From a virus: 23,106 nt of DNA. Below are positions 1,397 to 14,096 of this stretch, one piece after another. The position numbers and the translations under genes were made by a program. A model generated the notes under the pieces. That model was given only the letters and a program-made list of their open reading frames with translations. It ran no database searches and had not been told where the DNA came from. Position 1 is the first letter of the stretch; each line of letters starts with the position of its first letter. The DNA lies in the IMG/VR virus record IMGVR_UViG_3300045107_000741, positions 1 through 23,106 of that record; one strand, written 5' to 3'.

Positions 1397-1402
1397 CCTC
1401 CT
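1397..1402 (-). promoter_or_regulatory. Strong ribosome binding site that fixes the decoration-gene start
   Basis: On the minus strand the sequence reads TAGGAGGAGTGAACATG. The perfect Shine-Dalgarno hexamer AGGAGG overlaps the stop codon (TAG, 1403-1401) of the capsid gene. Spacing to the ATG at 1389 is 7 bases. It is among the strongest ribosome binding sites in the window, which fits a product needed in many copies per capsid. Confidence 0.8.
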
Positions 1403-3308
1403 AAGCACCCACATTCTTTTGGAGCCCGCGCCAGTCGATCGCCTTGGCCCCGAAGTCGAGCCGCGCTTTGATCTCCACCCCATCGACGTCGAAGCCTTGG
1501 CGCGTCTCGATGTACACGCCGTCCTGGCCCTCGAGGTAGGCGTATTCGATCGTGTCGATCTGATCCGGCGAGGCGAACAGATACCAGGCCGTCGTGCTCG
1601 CCGCGTCGAGCCGGGGTTCGGCAATCGGCGTCAGAGCCCGGATGTAGTCCGGCACGAGATCGGCGGATTTCGCGGGCGCCAAGTTCGGCGCGATCATCTG
1701 GAATGCCGCGAGTTGCAGCGCCACCGGCACCACCAGATAGCGCGGCTGCACGTTCAGCACGGTGATGCCATCAAGGCCTTTCTGCTTGGCCATGGCCGCC
1801 ATGCCCGCGCCCAGGCCCGTCAAGGCCAGCGCGCTGCCCGTGCCCGTGTTGAGGTTCGCGTGGTTCGCGTGGAACAGCGCCACGCCGTCACCCATCGCCG
1901 GGTTCGACGTGATGATGCCCCACACCGTATCGCTTTCAAGCGTCGCCGCCGCCACGCCGAACCCGGCGGGGATGCGCGTGAAGGCGCTCAGATCGTCGTT
2001 GATGATCGTTTGCCGGGTGATCGAAACGATGCGGCCATAGGTGGCGAGCTTGTAGGTCTCCTTCGATTCGGCGATCGAGCCGTGGGTGAACTCCCCCTTC
2101 TCGTTGACCTTCATCAAGCTCGGCGCTTCGCCCAACTGCACGGCGTTGATGTTTTTGAAATCGACCGCCGAGCGCCGGCGCGAGAACGGCAGGAAGGTGC
2201 GCGGGTAGGCTTCATAGGCCTGCCGCAGGGTCTTGTTGGCGACATCGGCGAGGATCGAGGGGAAGTCGGAGGTCGACAGGGCGAGCTTGGCGATCTCGTG
2301 GCGCGGCAGCCGCCTGGTGTGCGTACCGGAGATTTCGAGGCACTCCTTCGCCAGATCGAGCAGCGTCTGCCCGGCCCAGTCGCGGCCGAGGTCGTCCTTC
2401 AAGGGGAAGACCGCCGGATCGTAACGGTGCAACAGCGCCGCCATGATCCCGGCGCGGCGGGTGTCGGTCTGATCGCGCGTGACCACGGCGGCCGCGCTGC
2501 GGATGGGATTGCGCTCATCCTCTTCAGCCCGCTTGTCGAGCGCCAGTTTACGGAACTCTTCAATCGAAGTGCCCGCTTCGACGTGCTGAGCGACCAGGCG
2601 CGCATCGACATTCAACGTTCGCCCGACCTTCTCGATCTCCCGGATGCGCGTGCGTTCGGCGAGTGCGGCGGCCTGACGTTCGGCATCGAGGTTGATCTTC
2701 AGTTCGTCACGGGCCTGTTCGCCCGTGGCATTGTTCTTGGCGCCGGCAACGCCGGCTTCCACGATGGTTTCATCCATCTTCTGCTCCTGTGGGCCAGTTG
2801 CCCGTTCGAACTTGAACCCCGCGCCCGGATCGGCGCCGATGGGCACGAGCGACACTTCCTCGGGTTCCCAATCGGTCACCAGCACCTGGCGCATTGCAGA
2901 TCCCTGCGGCGTCACGTCTTCGATCGCGTGAATCGCGACACCCATGGAGGCATTGCGCAGGATGCCGTCCTGAACGTCCTGCCACACCGGGTCGACGTCG
3001 GCGCGCTTCGAAAACCGAACCGTGGCTTTGCCCTGGCCGTTCTCGACCCAGGCGCGCACGATCACGCCGATCACATCGTCGACGGTGAAGTCGCGATGAG
3101 AATTCAATAGCGGCGCCGCGCCGCTCGCGAGACGTCCCATGCGGATCGCACCCGGCTCCATCGAGAAGCGCATTTCGAATGGGCCGCGCGCGTCGTAGCG
3201 GCGGACGGATGCGCCCGTGTACCAGGTCAGTGTTGCCGTGCGCTCGTCGCGGTCGGCAGGGGCCAGCGCCTCAAACTGGGCTGCCAGCCGTTCTCTCGTT
3301 GGGGTCAT
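1401..3308 (-). CDS. Fused prohead maturation protease and Mu gpT-like major capsid protein
   Basis: This encodes 635 aa starting MTPTRERLAAQFEAL. Residues 1 to about 170 look like an HK97-type prohead protease: H71 in LLNSHRD, S121 in RNASMGVAI, and the EPEEVSLVPIGADPG signature at 149-162. A charged coiled-coil linker (about 180-270) follows, which may serve as an internal scaffold. From about residue 330 the sequence looks like a Mu gpT-type major head subunit (ANKTLRQAYEAYPRTF, then ITRQTIINDDLSAF, and FHANHANLNTG). In this arrangement the protease frees itself and the capsid part during assembly. The frame is open 16 codons further up, but AGGAA at 3320-3316 sits 7 bases from the ATG at 3308. 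The N-terminus overlaps the portal gene by 38 bases. Confidence 0.9.
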   Translation of the reverse strand: MTPTRERLAAQFEALAPADRDERTATLTWYTGASVRRYDARGPFEMRFSMEPGAIRMGRLASGAAPLLNSHRDFTVDDVIGVIVRAWVENGQGKATVRFSKRADVDPVWQDVQDGILRNASMGVAIHAIEDVTPQGSAMRQVLVTDWEPEEVSLVPIGADPGAGFKFERATGPQEQKMDETIVEAGVAGAKNNATGEQARDELKINLDAERQAAALAERTRIREIEKVGRTLNVDARLVAQHVEAGTSIEEFRKLALDKRAEEDERNPIRSAAAVVTRDQTDTRRAGIMAALLHRYDPAVFPLKDDLGRDWAGQTLLDLAKECLEISGTHTRRLPRHEIAKLALSTSDFPSILADVANKTLRQAYEAYPRTFLPFSRRRSAVDFKNINAVQLGEAPSLMKVNEKGEFTHGSIAESKETYKLATYGRIVSITRQTIINDDLSAFTRIPAGFGVAAATLESDTVWGIITSNPAMGDGVALFHANHANLNTGTGSALALTGLGAGMAAMAKQKGLDGITVLNVQPRYLVVPVALQLAAFQMIAPNLAPAKSADLVPDYIRALTPIAEPRLDAASTTAWYLFASPDQIDTIEYAYLEGQDGVYIETRQGFDVDGVEIKARLDFGAKAIDWRGLQKNVGA

Positions 3309-4851
3309 GGGGAGGTTCCTCGTCAGCAAGAAGTTCTGAAATTCCGCGCAACTCACGCTTCAGTTCAGCGACCGGCAGCTTTTGTTGCGCGCCGCTCTGC
3401 GTAACGCGGCGCGGATCGCAGTCGAGCACGATCCCACGCTCGTCGAGCAGCCGGTTGATTTCGGCGATCTGTTCGAGCTGCGCGTCGGGGTCATAGCCCT
3501 GCTCGGCGATCGCCTGCCGCAGCGTCAGCGTGCCCGTGCGCAGCCGGTTCAAGGTGGCGACCGAGTCCTTGTACGGGTCGACGCTGCCGAAACCGGGCGG
3601 CGTCCATTCGGCGCGAAACGGCCCTGGCTCGGGGATCGCGCCGGCTGCGTAGGCCACGGTGAGGAACCGCTCCCAAACCGGCGTGCAGAACATCGGAATG
3701 AACGTGAGCCAGCGAAATCCCTCGATGCCGTTGCGGAAGCTCAGCAGCCCCGCGCGGTAGCTCGAGTAGTTCACGCGGGAGAGGTCGCCCGTCAACTGTT
3801 CGTAGGTGAGCTGCAATCCTGTGGCGATCTGCGCTTGCTTGGCGGCGACGTAGTCGCGATAGCCCGCCGAGGCCGACGGAGAGGCGAAGGTGATCTCCTC
3901 GCCCGGCTTCAGGTACTCGATCATGCCCGGCTCGAAGCTTTCGACGCGCTTTCCGCTGGCCGGGTCCGGCGCTGTCGGCGCAATCGGCGGACCATCCGGG
4001 CCCTGCGGCTGCGTCACAAACGCCGCGAAGCAGGCCTCGATCTTCTTGCGGACCAGCTCGGCTTCCTCGTACTCATCGAGGTCGCGCAGCGTCACCACGA
4101 CGGGCGCCAGCCACGGCACGCCTCGGACCTGGCCGGGACGGTCCTTGCGGTAGATGTGCAGGACCTCGCTGGCAGGGACGCGCACGGATTCCAAGGCCGC
4201 CCCGCCACGCACACCCGTCTGAACCACATCTCCGGGATGCTGACCATAGAGCCAGTAGAAGACGCGCCGGCCCACCAGATCGAACTCGACACCCTGGATG
4301 ATGTAGCCCGTCTCGGTCTTCTGCGTTTTCGTATGGTCGAGGTAGTCCGGCTCGAGCACCTGGAGCTGCAACGGGACCGTAAGGCCGTCGCTCTCACGCC
4401 GCTGGCGGAAGCGCACCAGACATTCGCCGCTCTCAAACACCGTGCGGGCGATCAACGCCTGGAGCCCGTAGAAGTCGAGTTGGCCGTCGGCGTCGCATTC
4501 TTCGATCCAGTCCGCCCAAGCCACGTTGATGAGCCGGTCCAGGTCCGGCTCGCCGCTCCGCGCCTGTGCCGTGATGCCTGTGCCGATGGCGTTGCCCACC
4601 ATCTCGGCCACGGCGCGCGCCGCGTAGGCGTTGTTGCGGATCAGGTCGCGCGAGCGCTCGCGCAGCTTCGACAGCGCAACCGAGATCTCGGCGTTGGCCG
4701 AGTTGCCGGTGGTGACCCAGCCGCCCGTCCGGCGATCGGTCCGTGCGCCTTCGTAGGCCAACCGGATGAGCTCTCCAGCGCGGCGGGCGCGCATCCGCCG
4801 CAGACCCGTCTCGGGCGATACCCAGGCGATCGCTTTGTCGAGCCAGTTCAT
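3271..4851 (-). CDS. Phage portal protein, lambda gpB family
   Basis: This encodes 526 aa starting MNWLDKAIAWVSPETGLRRM. Family marks of lambda-type portals are visible: an early 'RARRAGELIRLAYEGA', 'LRERSRDLIRNNAYAARAVAEMVGNAIGTGI' near residues 62-95, 'FYGLQALIARTVFESGECLVRFR', 'VLEPDYLD', 'EVLHIYRKDRPGQVRGVPWLAPVV', 'EPGMIEYLKPGEEITFASPSA' and a late 'LTGDLSRVNYSSYRAGLL'. The protein forms the dodecameric ring at one capsid vertex through which DNA enters and leaves and on which the terminase docks. ATG 4851 overlaps the stop of the gpW-like gene by 4 bases and is preceded by AAAAGG. The C-terminal tail (DEEPPHDPNERTAGSPV) overlaps the start of the protease-capsid gene. No separate ClpP-like gpC protease lies nearby, in line with the fused protease downstream. 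Confidence 0.93.
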   Translation of the reverse strand: MNWLDKAIAWVSPETGLRRMRARRAGELIRLAYEGARTDRRTGGWVTTGNSANAEISVALSKLRERSRDLIRNNAYAARAVAEMVGNAIGTGITAQARSGEPDLDRLINVAWADWIEECDADGQLDFYGLQALIARTVFESGECLVRFRQRRESDGLTVPLQLQVLEPDYLDHTKTQKTETGYIIQGVEFDLVGRRVFYWLYGQHPGDVVQTGVRGGAALESVRVPASEVLHIYRKDRPGQVRGVPWLAPVVVTLRDLDEYEEAELVRKKIEACFAAFVTQPQGPDGPPIAPTAPDPASGKRVESFEPGMIEYLKPGEEITFASPSASAGYRDYVAAKQAQIATGLQLTYEQLTGDLSRVNYSSYRAGLLSFRNGIEGFRWLTFIPMFCTPVWERFLTVAYAAGAIPEPGPFRAEWTPPGFGSVDPYKDSVATLNRLRTGTLTLRQAIAEQGYDPDAQLEQIAEINRLLDERGIVLDCDPRRVTQSGAQQKLPVAELKRELRGISELLADEEPPHDPNERTAGSPV

Positions 4852-5051
4852 CCTTTTGAGGTCTGGGCGAACGAGAAACGATCCGTCGTGGTTCCGGATT
4901 CGATGGCCAGCGCTTCCTGGATCACGGCCCGCGCCTGGAGGAGCTCCTCCATCGAGCGGTAGGTCACCGTACGGTCGCCAAAGCGGACGGTCAGTTCGCC
5001 GCTGGCGATCGCCGCCTCAACGGCGTCGAGTTGTTGCTGCGTCCAGGCCAC
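4848..5051 (-). CDS. gpW-like head-tail joining protein
   Basis: This encodes 67 aa with a GTG start at 5051, directly after the TGA of the preceding gene; GGAGAA lies just upstream. The sequence starts MAWTQQQLDAVEAAIASGEL, followed by a two-strand stretch TVRFGDRTVTYRSMEELLQA and a C-terminal helix. This matches the gpW fold, which has two helices around a beta-hairpin, and the usual length of 60-75 aa. In lambda, gpW lies between terminase and portal genes and joins the head after packaging, before FII. The gene lies exactly there. The C-terminus is Ser/Thr-rich and the stop overlaps the portal ATG. Confidence 0.82.
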   Translation of the reverse strand: MAWTQQQLDAVEAAIASGELTVRFGDRTVTYRSMEELLQARAVIQEALAIESGTTTDRFSFAQTSKG

Positions 5052-5237
5052 TCAGTTTCTCCGGCGTTTGAAGTAGAACGTCGCCCGCGATCCGAACTCG
5101 CGCACAACGGCCACCAGTTCCCACCCTTGCGCGCCATGTTGGGCCAGCAGGTCAGGCGATTCCGCGTCGCCGGTGACCACCAGGTACTCCCAGGCACGAA
5201 GCGTCCCCTGAACGCCTGGCTGACTTCTGACTTTCAT
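5052..5237 (-). CDS. Small DUF4177-like protein
   Basis: This encodes 61 aa from ATG 5237 (MKVRSQPGVQG). A GTG at 5249 is possible, but the ATG overlaps the terminase stop by 4 bases (ATGA), which is the usual pattern in this operon. The core reads WEYLVV, then LLAQHGAQGWELVAVV and ends FYFKRRR. This 'W-E-Y ... L-x-x-x-G-x-x-G-W-E-L-V ... F-x-F-K-R' pattern is that of DUF4177, a family of about 60 aa with a single antiparallel sheet and no known function. It sits between terminase and gpW, so its expression is tied to late structural genes. A packaging or virion role would be inference only. Confidence 0.7.
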   Translation of the reverse strand: MKVRSQPGVQGTLRAWEYLVVTGDAESPDLLAQHGAQGWELVAVVREFGSRATFYFKRRRN

Positions 5238-8200
5238 CGCTTGAGCCACTTCCTCCCTCGCTCCCCCAGCCAGCGCTCGCGGTCCCGCTCATCCTCGGGC
5301 ACAGGACGGGGGCGGTTCGCCGCGAGGATCCGGTCCGCTTCGTTGTCGAGCGACAGGCCCATCGAGATGAGCGCCCGCAGCGCGGCGTAAGCGTAGACGC
5401 GCGCATCGAGCGCCTCCTGCCGGACGCCCGGTTTGGGCCGCCACTCGCGCTTGGGCTGGCCTTTCGCGTACGTGGTCACGAGCACCTCGCCCAGGAGTTG
5501 CTCAAAGTAGCCCTCCTCGCGGTCGGCTGGAAAGTGCGAGTAGCCAGGCGTGCCCGGCGTCGGATTCTTGAGCCGCCCGTAGATCGTTTCCTTCGCCGTG
5601 TCCGTGCCCACGATCCACGGCTTCTCACCCCGGATGTTCTTCGGCGTCGGCTTGCGTTGCCACACGGGCAATGGCCCACCCTTGCCCTTCACGGCGAAAA
5701 TGCGGCGGTGATAGCGGGTCCGGCTGAACTCATACACCGCCTGCGACTCGTAGCCCGCGTCGATCGCGCAAGCCGACACGGGCAACGAGATCCCCGTTTC
5801 GTGGGGCCAGCGGCGCTCGAGGTACGTGTCGAGTTCCTGCCAGACCAACGCGCCCGACGGGTCGCCCGGCAAGATGCGGTACTCGATCGACCACGATTCC
5901 TCGCCCCGCCCCCAGCCGACGAGTTCCAACTCGAGCCGGTCCTTCTGCACGTCGACGCCGGCGGTCAGCACGACCGCGCCGTACGGCACTGCCGCCCGGT
6001 AGTGCTCGCGCCGCGCCATCACCGCCGCCTGGTCGACCGCCGTTTCCGCCGCATCGTCCCAGGGTTCGGCGAGCACCGTGTTGACGAACTCGCGCAACGT
6101 CTCAATCGACTTCTTGTCGGCCAAGAACTTCTTCGCCAGCGCGCCCCACGTGCGCCAGGGCGAGTACAGGCCGTTGATCCAGAAACCGGCGATGTCGGCC
6201 ACCTCGGGCCGCGCGGCCCGCCACTCGCCGGCTTTGAGCATCGGGTGCTTCTGCCAGTCGGCAATCAGCTTCGAGCAGTGCTCGCAGCGGTACTGCGCCT
6301 TCTCCGGCGCCTCCTTCGGCCAGACGAGGTTGCCCCACGCGAGAACCTGAAACGCGCCGCAGTGCGGGCAGGGCACCCAGAAGCTCTGCTGGTTCGAGTT
6401 GTGCCAGGCTTGCTCGATGCGCGAGGCGCCCTTGGTCGTCGGCGTCGAACAGAGCACGATCTTCCGGTTCCAGAAGTTGGCCGTGCGTGTGATGGCCAGG
6501 TTGACCGGATCGCCTTCGCTACCGGCGCTTGCGGGATAGCGGTCCACCTCATCGAGAAGGCAGTAGCGGATCGAGCGCATCGCGAGGCCCGCCGGCGAGT
6601 TCGCCGCCGCGAGCGTAATCGAGCCGCCCAAGAACTTCTTGTGCAGGATCGTGTTGTTCGAATCCCGCGAGCGCGCATCAGCCACCTTGCCGCGCAGACA
6701 TGGCGTATCGCGCAGCATCGGAGCCAAGCGGTCCTTGGAAAACGCCTCGGCGTCGACCTCCCGTGGCTCGACAAGCAGCACCGGCCCTGGATCGAGCTCG
6801 ATGATGTAGCCAAGGAAGTTCTCGAGCAGTGAACTATTATGCGTCGGAATCATCCCCCGGCCTGCCAGGAACAATCGCGACGGAGAATCCACCGCCAGAC
6901 ACCGCACTGGAACCGATGAGACGGGTTCGATCGCGACGATGCTCCGGCGGCGGCTCTCGGTCGGGCGACTCTGACGCGAACCCACGCTACGGAGACGATC
7001 GAGCTTCCGCTGGAGCCGAAATGGCTGATCTTCCCGGTACGCCGTGAAAGTGATCCGGTACTTTGGGCCGCAGTCGGCGCCGCGGAGTGTCGCCCGCCCA
7101 ATTCTCAAGGCTGGTTTAAACCCCAAAGACACCGCGAGCTCGTAGAAATCGCGTGCGAGACGTTCGTTGGTGTTGGTGAATTCGACCGCTGAGCCCGTCA
7201 AAGACGCATATCCGTCAGTATCCAGCAGTCCCTGGAGCAGAGCGAGCCGTTGTCTCTCCGAAGCGCGCAGATACATCTGCGGGATGTGCTTGTCGCCCAG
7301 CACGCCCAAGCGCCGGAGTTGGGCAGTCATCGTGTCGGAGGTATCCGGCGTATTCGTTGCGCCAGAGACTCGCGGAAATAGCCGTTCCTGGCCGAGGCGT
7401 TCAATGCGCCGCCGCTTGGTCGCGACGGCCCGCATCGTCTTGCAGCGGCGGCAACCATACGGGCTTAAGTTCGCCCCTTCGAGGCGGTGCCCTCTTCGGC
7501 ATTCCGCGCGCAGAGCGAGGCGAGTTGCACGGCCCACTTGAACGGTGGCTACTCCGGTTGGCGTGCAGCGGATGACCCGCGCATCAGTGCCGGTCGCTCG
7601 CAAGAGTTGGTCCATTCCATCGCTGAGAAGGCCGGTAATCTGGGCCGAGTGAGCGTTGCCGTCACCCAGCCACACACCCAATGTGTAGGGTTCGACAGGC
7701 AGAACCACGTTGGGGAGCTCCAGTGGCTTGGTGCAAGCAATGCGGTATCGAGAGGCTTTTCGTGGTTGCCGCGGGATAATTACCTCCGCAGCCATCTCTT
7801 CCGTGCTCACTTCGCGAAAGCGGTCCTGCCGCCGGTCGTACGCCCTCCAGCGATGTTCGCCGTCGGTGACGATCTCGTTGCCGTCATCGAAGCGCACACG
7901 GTAACACGGGCGTCCATACTTGATCTCGCTGACAGCAACCACTCGACAAGTGGCGCCGCGGTCATCGAACAAGGTGTCGCCGGGTTGAACCTCCCCAAAC
8001 CGCATCCAACCGTCAGGCGTCGGAACTGGCGTGTCGAGAGCAAGGCATTTGCCACTTTGGGCTGCCCACATCATGACGACCGTCTCGTACGAGCTTGCCG
8101 GGCCCATGGCGTCCATCACCGCGCGCTGATACGGCGCCCGGTCCGTGCGCCACTCGCCCTTTTCCGCGGCCGACTCCGACGACAGCCGCCGGTTCTGATC

Positions 8201-8278
8201 CGCCCATTGCGAAACGGTCAGGTCCGGCGGCGGCAACAGCACATCTGCCGCCAGGATCTGGATTTCGTCAACGCGCAT
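5234..8278 (-). CDS. terL: Terminase large subunit, GpA family, interrupted by an intein
   Basis: This encodes 1014 aa, of which residues 78-481 are an intein, leaving a 610-aa mature protein, normal for lambda gpA-type terminases. The N-extein ends AAQSGK at residue 77 and the C-extein resumes SSLLENFLGY, so splicing restores the Walker A motif QSGKS. Walker B is LLDEVD (D576, E577); the coupling motif is CSTPTTKG (610-617). Two CxxC pairs (C637/C640, C665/C668) form a zinc-binding insert. The nuclease domain shows D776 in TAGVDVQKDR and D840 in CAIDAGYES. The enzyme drives DNA into the prohead and cuts it at packaging ends. Without splicing the ATPase would be dead. ATG 8278 overlaps the small-subunit gene by 11 bases and has no evident ribosome binding site, suggesting coupling. 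Confidence 0.95.
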   Translation of the reverse strand: MRVDEIQILAADVLLPPPDLTVSQWADQNRRLSSESAAEKGEWRTDRAPYQRAVMDAMGPASSYETVVMMWAAQSGKCLALDTPVPTPDGWMRFGEVQPGDTLFDDRGATCRVVAVSEIKYGRPCYRVRFDDGNEIVTDGEHRWRAYDRRQDRFREVSTEEMAAEVIIPRQPRKASRYRIACTKPLELPNVVLPVEPYTLGVWLGDGNAHSAQITGLLSDGMDQLLRATGTDARVIRCTPTGVATVQVGRATRLALRAECRRGHRLEGANLSPYGCRRCKTMRAVATKRRRIERLGQERLFPRVSGATNTPDTSDTMTAQLRRLGVLGDKHIPQMYLRASERQRLALLQGLLDTDGYASLTGSAVEFTNTNERLARDFYELAVSLGFKPALRIGRATLRGADCGPKYRITFTAYREDQPFRLQRKLDRLRSVGSRQSRPTESRRRSIVAIEPVSSVPVRCLAVDSPSRLFLAGRGMIPTHNSSLLENFLGYIIELDPGPVLLVEPREVDAEAFSKDRLAPMLRDTPCLRGKVADARSRDSNNTILHKKFLGGSITLAAANSPAGLAMRSIRYCLLDEVDRYPASAGSEGDPVNLAITRTANFWNRKIVLCSTPTTKGASRIEQAWHNSNQQSFWVPCPHCGAFQVLAWGNLVWPKEAPEKAQYRCEHCSKLIADWQKHPMLKAGEWRAARPEVADIAGFWINGLYSPWRTWGALAKKFLADKKSIETLREFVNTVLAEPWDDAAETAVDQAAVMARREHYRAAVPYGAVVLTAGVDVQKDRLELELVGWGRGEESWSIEYRILPGDPSGALVWQELDTYLERRWPHETGISLPVSACAIDAGYESQAVYEFSRTRYHRRIFAVKGKGGPLPVWQRKPTPKNIRGEKPWIVGTDTAKETIYGRLKNPTPGTPGYSHFPADREEGYFEQLLGEVLVTTYAKGQPKREWRPKPGVRQEALDARVYAYAALRALISMGLSLDNEADRILAANRPRPVPEDERDRERWLGERGRKWLKR
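6836..8047 (-). mobile_element. 404-aa LAGLIDADG intein in the TerL Walker A motif
   Basis: The element starts with Cys (codon 8047-8045) and ends His-Asn (codon 6838-6836), with Ser as the first C-extein residue. Intein-numbered marks are: block A CLALDTPVPTPDGW at 1-14 followed by PGDTLFDD; block B TDGEH with His65; LAGLIDADG motif 1 LGVWLGDG at 123-130; motif 2 LQGLLDTDG at 271-279; and C-terminal blocks CLAVDSP at 383-389 and GMIPTHN at 398-404. All residues needed for splicing are present, as are the acidic residues of the endonuclease (D129, D278). A zinc-finger-like insert (C183-x3-H187-x11-C199-x2-C202) lies between the two endonuclease motifs. The element is in frame with no stops, so it looks active both for splicing and homing. 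Confidence 0.95.
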
Positions 8279-8756
8279 GCTGGACGGCGCGGTGGGTATC
8301 GTTCAGCAGGACGCGCGCCTCGCGCATCAGCACGTCCCACACCTCGCGTTCATCGGTGAGCGGCGCGACCTCCGGCGCAACCCGGTTCGGCCAAGCCATC
8401 ACGGTTTCCCGGATCACCACGAGGATCGCCTCGATCCGTTGGCGAAACAAATCGGTCTCCATCAGCTTGCCCATCTTCAGGTCGTACTCGATCTTCCGCA
8501 GCCGGGCCTTGAAGACCATGTCGGCTGTCTTCGCCTGGGCAAACGTCGTCCCCGTGGACGCAGCCTCAATCGGAGCGGCTGCCACGCGTTCCGAGACCGG
8601 CTCGGGCCGGTCATCGAGCACGGCGTCCGAGGCCGGCGCGTCCACCTTGCCGCCACGCATAACCAGGACGCCGGCCTTGGCCAGCCGGCTGATGTACTGG
8701 CGGCTCTTGCCGCGGTGCCGCGCGTACTCGGCCTGGGTCATCAACCTGTCCGACAT
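8268..8756 (-). CDS. terS: Terminase small subunit (Nu1-like)
   Basis: This encodes 162 aa starting MSDRLMTQAEYARHRGKSRQYISRLAKAGVL. Residues 5-40 form a winged helix-turn-helix of the kind used by lambda Nu1 and DUF1441 proteins to recognise the packaging site. A variable Pro/Ala-rich linker (about 45-75) follows, then a helical domain with LRKIEYDLKMGKLMETD and an 'FRQRIEAILVVIRETVMAWPNRVAPEV' segment typical of this family. It lies directly upstream of, and overlaps by 11 bases, the large subunit. The start at 8756 has GGAG immediately before the ATG, closer than usual; ATG 8741 (MTQAEY) is an alternative. It is the first gene of the minus-strand packaging/head operon, so a promoter probably lies in 8757-8846. 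Confidence 0.88.
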   Translation of the reverse strand: MSDRLMTQAEYARHRGKSRQYISRLAKAGVLVMRGGKVDAPASDAVLDDRPEPVSERVAAAPIEAASTGTTFAQAKTADMVFKARLRKIEYDLKMGKLMETDLFRQRIEAILVVIRETVMAWPNRVAPEVAPLTDEREVWDVLMREARVLLNDTHRAVQHAR

Positions 8757-9309: not shown

Positions 9310-9543
9310 ATGGCCATGACCCGCGAAGAACTCATCGCCTGGGCCACCCGCAACGGCTGGAAGCTCGACCGCTGGGGCCACCTCAGGAAGGAGTTCTCGA
9401 ACGGCACGCACCGCTTGAAGCTCAGCCGCATTGCCGCCCGGCACGAATTGCACACGCCTTTCGGGTGGTGCAGGCTTGCGAGCGGCTACTACAGGAACTT
9501 GCACCTCACCGCCGACGATCAACTCGCCGGCATGACCCGATAG
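9310..9543 (+). CDS. Small protein of unknown function
   Basis: This encodes 77 aa starting MAMTREELIAWATRNGWKLD. AGGA lies 9 bases before ATG 9310; an internal ATG at 9316 is also possible. It is rich in Trp, His, Arg and Leu. The start (EELIAWATRNGWKLDRWGHLRK) could be a short helix-turn-helix-like fold, and the middle (HRLKLSRIAARHELH) is basic. That would suit nucleic-acid binding, but I recognise no family. It starts 4 bases after the zinc-ribbon gene. The next gene starts 14 bases downstream, so all four genes of the cassette appear to be one transcript. Confidence 0.68.
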   Translation: MAMTREELIAWATRNGWKLDRWGHLRKEFSNGTHRLKLSRIAARHELHTPFGWCRLASGYYRNLHLTADDQLAGMTR

Positions 9544-9557
9544 AAAGGACACCTGCT

Positions 9558-10103
9558 ATGACGACGTTTGCCATTGACACCGACAACACGATCACCGCCT
9601 ACCTGGCTGGTGAAGCTGTCCCCGAGGACCAGGCGCGATTCTCGAGCGAAAAGGAACTCGCCAAACTCGCCGCCAACTGGCCCGCCGAGCGGCTGGTCGA
9701 GATCTGGAACGGCTTCGCCGGCGTGCCGCCCTTTGGCGACCTGAAGCCGGTCAAGAAGTTCACCGACCGCAAGACTTCCGTCGCGCGCATCTGGCGCGCC
9801 ATCCAAGCCCTGACGCCCACCCCCTCGCCCCAGGCGGCGCCCGTCGCGCAGAGGAAGACCAAGGCGGCCAAGGACACCACCCCGCCCAAAGACGCCCGCG
9901 TGGGCTCGAAGAAGGCCATCGTGCTCGAACTCCTGCGCCGCCCCGAAGGCGCCACATTGCAGGAGATCATGTCCGTAACAGGCTGGATGGCGCATTCGGT
10001 CCGCGGCTTCCTCTCCGGCGCGCTCGGTAAGAAGATGGGCCTCACGATCGAATCTCTCAAGACCGACGAAGGCGTCCGTGTGTATCGAATCAAACCTCAA
10101 TAG
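9558..10103 (+). CDS. DUF3489 domain protein
   Basis: This encodes 181 aa starting MTTFAIDTDNTITAYLAGEA. AAAGGA at 9544-9549 is 8 bases before ATG 9558. The N-terminal half (1-90) has EKELAKLAANWPAERLVEIWNGFAG, a segment seen in this family. A Lys/Ala/Pro-rich linker (about 95-120) follows. The C-terminal DUF3489 domain (about 120-178) reads GSKKAIVLELLRRPEGATLQ, then EIMSVTGWMAHSVRGFLSGA and ends in GVRVYRI, which has the look of a winged helix. DUF3489 is common in prophages, plasmids and mobile islands. DNA binding or regulation is likely from the fold but not proven. It is the last gene of the cassette and is followed by a hairpin terminator. Confidence 0.85.
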   Translation: MTTFAIDTDNTITAYLAGEAVPEDQARFSSEKELAKLAANWPAERLVEIWNGFAGVPPFGDLKPVKKFTDRKTSVARIWRAIQALTPTPSPQAAPVAQRKTKAAKDTTPPKDARVGSKKAIVLELLRRPEGATLQEIMSVTGWMAHSVRGFLSGALGKKMGLTIESLKTDEGVRVYRIKPQ

Positions 10104-11774: not shown

Positions 11775-12311
11775 TCAGATGTGGCTCCACGTCTTGCCAG
11801 TGACAGCGTCGTACACCGTGAGCTTCGGGAATCCGAACTCGTCGGCAATCTCCCGGTAGAGCGCGCCTGCTCGTCGCCGGCTTCTCAATGCCAGTACAAG
11901 ATCGTTGGTGAGGCGGGCCATGGGATGTTTTTCACCCCTGGTATCCGGCAACCTTCCATGTCTGCGGCGGTCCAGTGCATTCTCGGAAGGCGTAGCCCAG
12001 CGGAGATTCGCCCAGTGATTGTTGTCCCGGCTGCCATCGCCATGTGCGACCTCATGCTGCGGAGTCGGTTGAGGGCCGATGAAAGCGAGCGCGACCAGAC
12101 GATGGACGAAGACATCATGAGCGATGCCGCGCTCCGAAAGCCTGACAGTCATATAGCCGAAGCGATTCCTTCGTTGCCGTAGGACCATCCCAGCCGGGTA
12201 ATGACGGAACGAAACCGCGCGCCGGATGTCGCCGCGCTCAGACGCCTCGTAGGATGGGAATCCTGGAATCGGGCGCCACTCGATAGGGCCTTGTGGGGTC
12301 GAATGATTCAC
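11775..12311 (-). CDS. NUMOD4-HNH homing endonuclease
   Basis: This encodes 178 aa with a GTG start at 12311 that overlaps the preceding stop (GTGA). Residues 11-31 (EWRPIPGFPSYEASERGDIR) are a NUMOD4 motif. The HNH nuclease core spans about 68-115, with H70 in VHRLVALAF, H86 and H90 in QHEVAHGDG, N97/N98 and NLRWATPSENALD. The C-terminus (about 130-175) reads as a helix-turn-helix that would recognise DNA (LYREIADEFG, then LTVYDAVTGKTW). Proteins of this layout are free-standing homing endonucleases found in phages. The stop abuts the methyltransferase ATG, so it sits exactly between two genes without disrupting either. No partner intron is apparent. Confidence 0.88.
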   Translation of the reverse strand: MNHSTPQGPIEWRPIPGFPSYEASERGDIRRAVSFRHYPAGMVLRQRRNRFGYMTVRLSERGIAHDVFVHRLVALAFIGPQPTPQHEVAHGDGSRDNNHWANLRWATPSENALDRRRHGRLPDTRGEKHPMARLTNDLVLALRSRRRAGALYREIADEFGFPKLTVYDAVTGKTWSHI

Positions 12312-13292: not shown

Positions 13293-14018
13293 TCAATCGA
13301 CGCGCAGGATCTCAGCCGCCGAAGCCACGATCTGTTGAATCAAGTCAAAACGTCGAGCACTGGGACCGGAACAAGGCACGACGTACATCGCGCCGTCGAA
13401 AGGCCGCAGCCGCTTACGGAGCTTATCGTATGGTCGATGCCACTGGATACGTTTGCCGATGAACCACAGAAGCAATGCTCGCAATTCGCCAAGCATCGGC
13501 AGCGGTTCAGGGTAGCTGAAGTTTGGCGCAGCAAACTCGCCGTGTAGCGCCATCGCCGCGAGGTCGTATGTGACTGCCGCCTCTTCTGCCGTCTCGTAGA
13601 TACCAAGGTAGTGAACCCTACCTTCATACCTGATCTGGGCTACCCACCGGTCATTGTCCCGGCCGAACCGACGCACTCCCTTGTACCCAGAGGTGTTTTT
13701 CTCGTTCCGGCTGCGGTTCCTTGCATTCCCGCCCCTGTCGGTCAAACGCAAGTTGCAGCGACGATTGTCCAGCCGGTTACGGTTCTTGTGGTCTACGTCG
13801 ACGCCGACGGGCGCATGGATAATCACCCTGTGCATGCGAAGCCATTTGCGACCCTCCCGGCGAGATAGCTGTCTAACTGCATATCCACCAACCATGCACC
13901 AGCGATGTTTGGCCAAGTCGGCGTCTTGGGGATCTACGAAAGCATAGGCCACCACCGTGCCGTCTCGCCTCCAAAGCGGTATCTGTACGGACGAGGATGG
14001 TTCCTGCTCCGGCCTCAT
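13293..14018 (-). CDS. HNH-AP2 homing endonuclease
   Basis: This encodes 241 aa from ATG 14018 (MRPEQEPSSSVQIPLWRRDG). The frame extends to a TTG at 14090, whose ribosome binding site is poor. The N-terminus has the usual 'Y.FVDPQDADLAKHRWCM' lead-in. The HNH core spans about 60-100: MHRVI (H63), DVDHKNRNRLDNRRCNLRL (H77, N80, N89) and NARNRSRNEKNTSG. Residues about 111-167 are an AP2 DNA-binding domain (GYKGVRRFGRDNDRWVAQIR, then LGIYETAEEAAVTYDLAA). Proteins of this type are free-standing homing endonucleases in phages. The 70 residues after the AP2 domain are basic and I do not recognise them. The ParB remnant immediately downstream hints at a past insertion or replacement here. Confidence 0.9.
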   Translation of the reverse strand: MRPEQEPSSSVQIPLWRRDGTVVAYAFVDPQDADLAKHRWCMVGGYAVRQLSRREGRKWLRMHRVIIHAPVGVDVDHKNRNRLDNRRCNLRLTDRGGNARNRSRNEKNTSGYKGVRRFGRDNDRWVAQIRYEGRVHYLGIYETAEEAAVTYDLAAMALHGEFAAPNFSYPEPLPMLGELRALLLWFIGKRIQWHRPYDKLRKRLRPFDGAMYVVPCSGPSARRFDLIQQIVASAAEILRVD

Positions 14019-14096
14019 GTCACCCACGGCCGGAGGCGAGGGTGACGTAACAAGGCTTTCTGTGGCAATCAGTTGCGCCTCTCTTGTCAACGCGCG

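Follow-up and report, generated by a model that had tools for sequence, protein, structure and literature searches.

Class 3 inteins are recognized by the WCT triplet (PMC6195587, PMC7664689) and, in the strict sequence definition, by a residue 1 that is not a nucleophile (PMC7664689, PMC7891396); a nucleophile at this position is reported as not required for their splicing (PMC5222942). In class 1 inteins, the Thr of the block B TxxH motif positions residue 1 (PMC6195587), and a Cys at F:4 by itself has also been seen in this class (PMC4031507). The origin of class 3 is debated, with descent from a class 1 intein of phages through loss of residue 1 (PMC3196547, PMC4031507) set against a separate route (PMC7664689). 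Among phage large terminases (TerL), the Lys/Thr position of mycobacteriophage TerL1 (here and below, the slash marks an insertion point) is site a, the 'classic' P-loop insertion (TerL1-a), and the survey that covers it found inteins in terminase_1 and terminase_6 types only among its TerL families (PMC5050341). The sequence studied here is a 23.1-kb virus record (hereafter the window, meaning the whole stretch of DNA analysed), in which an intein interrupts a TerL of the GpA type, a family other than those found to bear inteins in that survey. The terminase region is arranged as follows.

5234–8278, minus strand: GpA-type TerL precursor, 1014 aa, intein-interrupted (PF05876, PF20454, phrog_15 terminase large subunit)
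8268–8756, minus strand: terminase small subunit, neighbour upstream of the TerL gene (phrog_57)
8048–8278, minus strand: N-extein, 77 aa, ending in MWAAQSGK, i.e. Walker A through its invariant Lys
6836–8047, minus strand: intein, 404 aa, a LAGLIDADG homing endonuclease lying within a splicing domain of class 3 type
5234–6835, minus strand: C-extein, 533 aa plus stop, beginning with SSLLENFL, where Ser+1 is the Walker A Ser

Both domains of a GpA-type TerL are present in the window protein, namely the ATPase (PF05876, E=3.8e-84) and the nuclease (PF20454, E=3.3e-91), and the ATPase match is split in two with the break exactly at the intein, the C-extein starting at about PF05876 position 41. 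The intein occupies residues 78–481 of the ORF in frame, with its first codon, TGC (Cys), ending at 8047, its last codon, AAT (Asn), at 6836, and the junctions MWAAQSGK/Cys1 and Asn404/SSLLENFL. An earlier sequence-only reading of this DNA had placed the element at 6836–8047, and a codon check on the minus strand (ORF 5234–8278) returns exactly these coordinates; the Cys1, His65, His-Asn end (His403-Asn404) and Ser+1 that it listed are all found in frame, and its assignment of the host to GpA-type terminases, with the insert in the Walker A loop, is borne out by the two Pfam matches. Joining the exteins in silico gives a 610-aa protein with an intact QSGKS Walker A, which reproduces the lengths it had given for the element and the joined terminase. 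Because the Walker A of TerL would be unusable with the insert in place, DNA packaging should depend on removal of the intein, a dependence that the same reading had proposed.

Relatives of the terminase show what the site looks like without the insert. A protein search with the joined exteins, of a kind that favours contiguous matches, retrieved 80 viral loci. At least 51 near relatives (72–97% identical) have this TerL uninterrupted, and 9 further, more distant homologues cross the insertion site without an insert, 60 in total. The sequence-only reading had named, as the finding that would overturn it, homologues that keep the segment in the mature terminase; all 60 site-spanning homologues are uninterrupted, and a role of the segment as a piece of the mature terminase is ruled out by these empty sites. 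Isolated phages show the same alignment gap at the insert, with the exception of Acidovorax phage ACF1, whose GpA terminase has an intein at the same Lys/Thr. In one empty phage (L024), the 48-bp flanks are exactly those of an occupied locus (L007). The insert has the general properties of an intein, being in frame in a conserved gene and missing from homologues, and a chance origin of the intein reading is ruled out by the LAGLIDADG match over its cut-off, the DnaB intein match and the empty homologues.

The splicing domain carries three groups of diagnostic residues.

8045–8047, minus strand: Cys1 codon (TGC), atypical of the class 3 family
7847–7864, minus strand: block B, D62-x-x-H65-x-W67, comprising DxxH and Trp67 of the WCT triplet (from alignments; compare MsmDnaBi1 Asp62/His65/Trp67)
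6836–6901, minus strand: blocks F and G, C383 (F:4) and T402-H403-N404 (from alignments)

Blocks A, B, F and G, the C-terminal His-Asn, Ser+1 and the HINT fold are all present, and the class 3 signature is complete (Trp67 at B:12, Cys383 at F:4 and Thr402 at G:5). The intein matches solved DnaB inteins (E=1.8e-27), and its score with the Pfam Intein_splicing model stays under the cut-off of that model. In an AlphaFold2 model (mean pLDDT 89.5), the splicing domain superposes on the class 3 M. smegmatis DnaB intein 6bs8 at 1.1 Å over 125 residues with 46% identity, whereas class 1 inteins among the structural matches listed reach at most 27% identity. The mycobacterial class 3 DnaB inteins MsmDnaBi1 and MchDnaB1 (46% identity and 1.1–1.2 Å to the window splicing domain) share with it a P-loop K/S site, DxxH, WCT, the same block B numbering (Asp62, His65, Trp67) and Cys48; unlike it, they are endonuclease-free mini-inteins that begin with Ala and reside in a bacterial replicative helicase.

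Residue 1 is where the window intein departs from this family. A set of 169 inteins, comprising the window intein and relatives found in viral contigs, phages and GTDB genomes, retains Trp67 and Cys383 throughout (169/169 each) and Thr402 in 168/169. The first residue is Ala in 136 inteins, Pro in 13, Cys in 8 and Ser in 1, and seven of the eight Cys1 inteins belong to the clade of the window and the eighth to ACF1. These 169 are the top-scoring portion of longer hit lists, so that the pairing of Cys1 with WCT may be more frequent outside them. All four distinct alleles in the clade retain Cys1 (codon TGC, but TGT in L080); the most distant members of the clade are ~63% identical in intein nucleotides. 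Its presence conflicts with the strict sequence definition of class 3 and agrees with the Cys, Ser or Thr found at residue 1 in class 1, while block B lacks the TxxH typical of class 1: the block described earlier as TxxH-like reads D62-G-E-H65 and is DxxH. In an unrooted tree, the seven Cys1 inteins of the clade group together with full support, surrounded by Ala1 inteins. When five class 1 inteins, drawn from one Chloroflexi and one Mycobacterium genome, serve as the root, the tree places this outgroup outside the WCT family (SH-aLRT 99) and the Cys1 clade nested in Ala1 inteins, with weak inner nodes and long outgroup branches.

Because the clade is nested among Ala1 inteins in both trees, Cys1 is best read as regained, most likely as a secondary change within the class 3 family that would be dispensable for starting splicing, and the block F cysteine is the likelier starter since class 3 inteins are reported not to require a residue-1 nucleophile (PMC5222942). 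As judged from sequence, the window intein belongs to the class 3 sequence family, and the combination of Cys1 with WCT is its one unusual feature; given Cys1, it is filed as a class 3 lineage rather than as a proven class 3 intein. The identification as an intein thus stands, while the class 1 reading implied by the first description gives way to a family, WCT, DxxH and fold that are class 3. A class 1 route, in which splicing proceeds via the regained Cys1 and the class 3 likeness is a matter of descent with Cys383 now assisting, could draw on the conservation of Cys1 across the four alleles and on the occurrence of an F:4 Cys in class 1 inteins (PMC4031507), but we consider it unlikely: DxxH stands in place of the TxxH whose Thr positions residue 1 (PMC6195587), WCT is complete, most relatives are without a residue-1 nucleophile and the nearest solved splicing domains are class 3.

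Less probable still is a hybrid in which both routes are usable and either cysteine can start the reaction. It accords with two complete nucleophile sets and with the retention of Cys1 across so diverged a clade, but a class 1 intein that was stripped of Cys1 and given the WCT residues yielded hardly any spliced product (PMC7664689), and class 1 and class 3 active sites are for that reason not freely interchangeable. The specific proposal of a class 3 intein with a regained Cys1 and both nucleophile sets, in which either cysteine may start splicing, is unlikely; if true, such a dual-nucleophile intein would be a natural bridge between classes 3 and 1 that strict sequence definitions miss. The Cys1 plus WCT clade is a ready test object for the question of class 3 origin.

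Nucleophilic residues at position 1 are also seen in other WCT inteins. The ACF1 intein resembles that of the window in its GpA TerL host, its K/T site and its Cys1 plus WCT, but is ~35–38% identical, is without the zinc-finger-like segment described below and has Asn for the first endonuclease Asp. The intein of mycobacteriophage Catera Gp206, in a host gene other than TerL, starts with Ser. The StubbySaigey gp219 intein is in line with this, as a member of the WCT family with a nucleophilic residue 1, which is Ser and not Cys, in another host gene. Catera Gp206 has been described as a class 3 intein that splices (PMC3196547).

The region between the splicing blocks has the features of a homing endonuclease.

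7658–7681, minus strand: LAGLIDADG motif 1, LGVWLGDG, residues 123–130 (Asp129; from alignments)
7442–7501, minus strand: zinc-finger-like CRRGHRLEGANLSPYGCRRC, residues 183–202, within the endonuclease (pattern in ~30/169 relatives)
7208–7240, minus strand: LAGLIDADG motif 2, LLQGLLDTDGY, residues 270–280 (Asp278; from Pfam and alignments)

The LAGLIDADG domain PF14528 lies over its Pfam cut-off, the fold of this part matches PI-SceI and I-DmoI, both catalytic Asp residues (Asp129 and Asp278) are retained, and the endonuclease part is under purifying selection (pN/pS 0.18–0.24). The full-length model aligns with PI-SceI, the yeast VMA intein (Z 27.0, 3.5 Å, 325 residues), which likewise has a LAGLIDADG endonuclease with two motifs inside its splicing domain but is class 1, resides in another host protein and is 17% identical. 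The segment CRRGHRLEGANLSPYGCRRC sits between the two motifs; similar CxxGH...CxxC-like segments occur in ~30 of the 169 inteins, many of them at the GpA site, and are missing in ACF1. As a named domain it had no match in Pfam (searched at 7346–7570) and none in isolated phages, and its sole PHROG match is weak (HNH, E=0.008); the segment may be a zinc-binding element that assists in recognizing DNA.

Comparison between related phages points to recent movement of the intein. Its DNA is identical at 1212/1212 positions to that of two other loci (L003 and L004) and 99.6% identical to a third (L005). Against L003 and L004, 0/246 fourfold-degenerate sites of the intein differ, whereas extein fourfold sites differ by 13.7% (L003, p=3e-12) and 17.4% (L004, p=1e-15). 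The contigs were assembled from metagenomes, in which a 1.2-kb block common to several strains can lead to false joins, a worry lessened, not removed, by their coming from different metagenomes. Because the intein DNA is identical while extein fourfold sites differ, the intein has moved on its own. With L004, identity spans at least 700 bases upstream to ~500 downstream and then falls to 88–94%, as a co-conversion tract or other recombination would leave. At the same site, L007 has a C-extein 97% identical in amino acids and an intein only 74% identical in amino acids and 68% in nucleotides, with synonymous sites saturated; deep divergence despite a near-identical C-extein means that two old intein lineages share one site. 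A further intein (L006:476-1687) is mosaic-like, with the N-terminal splicing part nearer L007 and the endonuclease nearer the window, which suggests recombination between intein alleles. The sequences show a recent transfer of the intein between related phages, and the identity, allele, empty-site and selection data fit active homing. Unoccupied sites, copies of one intein in differing backgrounds and the second allele at this site together provide a clean homing record in uncultured phages. Free-standing HNH genes are found elsewhere in the window, at 11775–12311 (minus strand; HNH_3 and NUMOD4) and at 13293–14090 (minus strand; AP2 and HNH_3, the AP2 match being just below its cut-off); two such genes in the same small genome suggest more homing elements.

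Anatomy, class 3 family and recent transfer, each read from the sequence, are best explained by a mobile intein that belongs to the class 3 lineage, carries a LAGLIDADG homing endonuclease and occupies the Walker A loop of a GpA-type TerL, an explanation that we consider probable and from which we infer splicing, the starter cysteine and DNA cutting. The TerL precursor would be translated with the intein in place; Cys383, helped by His65 and Thr402, would attack the Lys-Cys1 peptide bond and take over the N-extein in thioester linkage. Ser+1 would next receive the N-extein, after which Asn404 would cyclise and the 610-aa terminase would be freed with its Walker A intact. As an endonuclease, the intein would cut intein-less terL around GGCAAA/AGT, and repair would copy the intein in. 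That the insert has decayed and no longer splices, leaving the terminase dead, is scarcely credible: there is a precedent in a single decayed class 3 intein (PMC3196547), but the present analysis gave the idea no support, and splicing and endonuclease residues are all intact, with no stops, purifying selection and recent spread.

A redox switch, in which a Cys48-Cys383 disulphide delays packaging until redox conditions allow it, would be compatible with any splicing route. Cys48 is present in the window intein and in 150/169 of the set, and DnaBi1, at a P-loop site of the same kind, is inhibited by peroxide (PMC6195587). We nevertheless judge such a switch improbable, as near-identical phages live without the intein and the conservation of Cys48 may reflect splicing alone, its change abolishing DnaBi1 splicing (PMC6195587). 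Splicing as a packaging timer, an idea raised in the sequence-only reading, may occur but is not needed for phage life, because many near-identical phages have no intein, and this favours a selfish element that is tolerated over a timer that is required.

The insertion point, earlier thought possibly new, turns out to be shared, since class 3 inteins occur there in many GpA terminases. In ten relatives including ACF1, the C-exteins begin at GpA profile position 41–43, which is the same site, and PHROG 15 itself spans an intein; a new insertion site is ruled out by the nine other tested GpA terminases plus ACF1 that share the position. TerL1-a of mycobacteriophages (PMC5050341) is alike in lying between the invariant Walker A Lys and the next Ser/Thr, but its host TerL is of the Terminase_1 family and not GpA. 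Six loci (L090, L091, L093, L095, L230 and L239) encode GpA-like terminases with class 3 inteins that start with Pro, and in these the Walker A Lys is replaced (GG/P or GA/P).

Other features of the window include a fusion of major capsid protein and protease at 1401–3356 (minus strand), ~40% identical to Pseudomonas and Rhodobacter phage proteins, and a DUF3489 protein at 9465–10103 (plus strand), coded against the direction of its neighbours. Long open frames lie opposite real genes, at 3382–4962 (plus strand) and at other places, and most likely reflect the G+C content of 64%.
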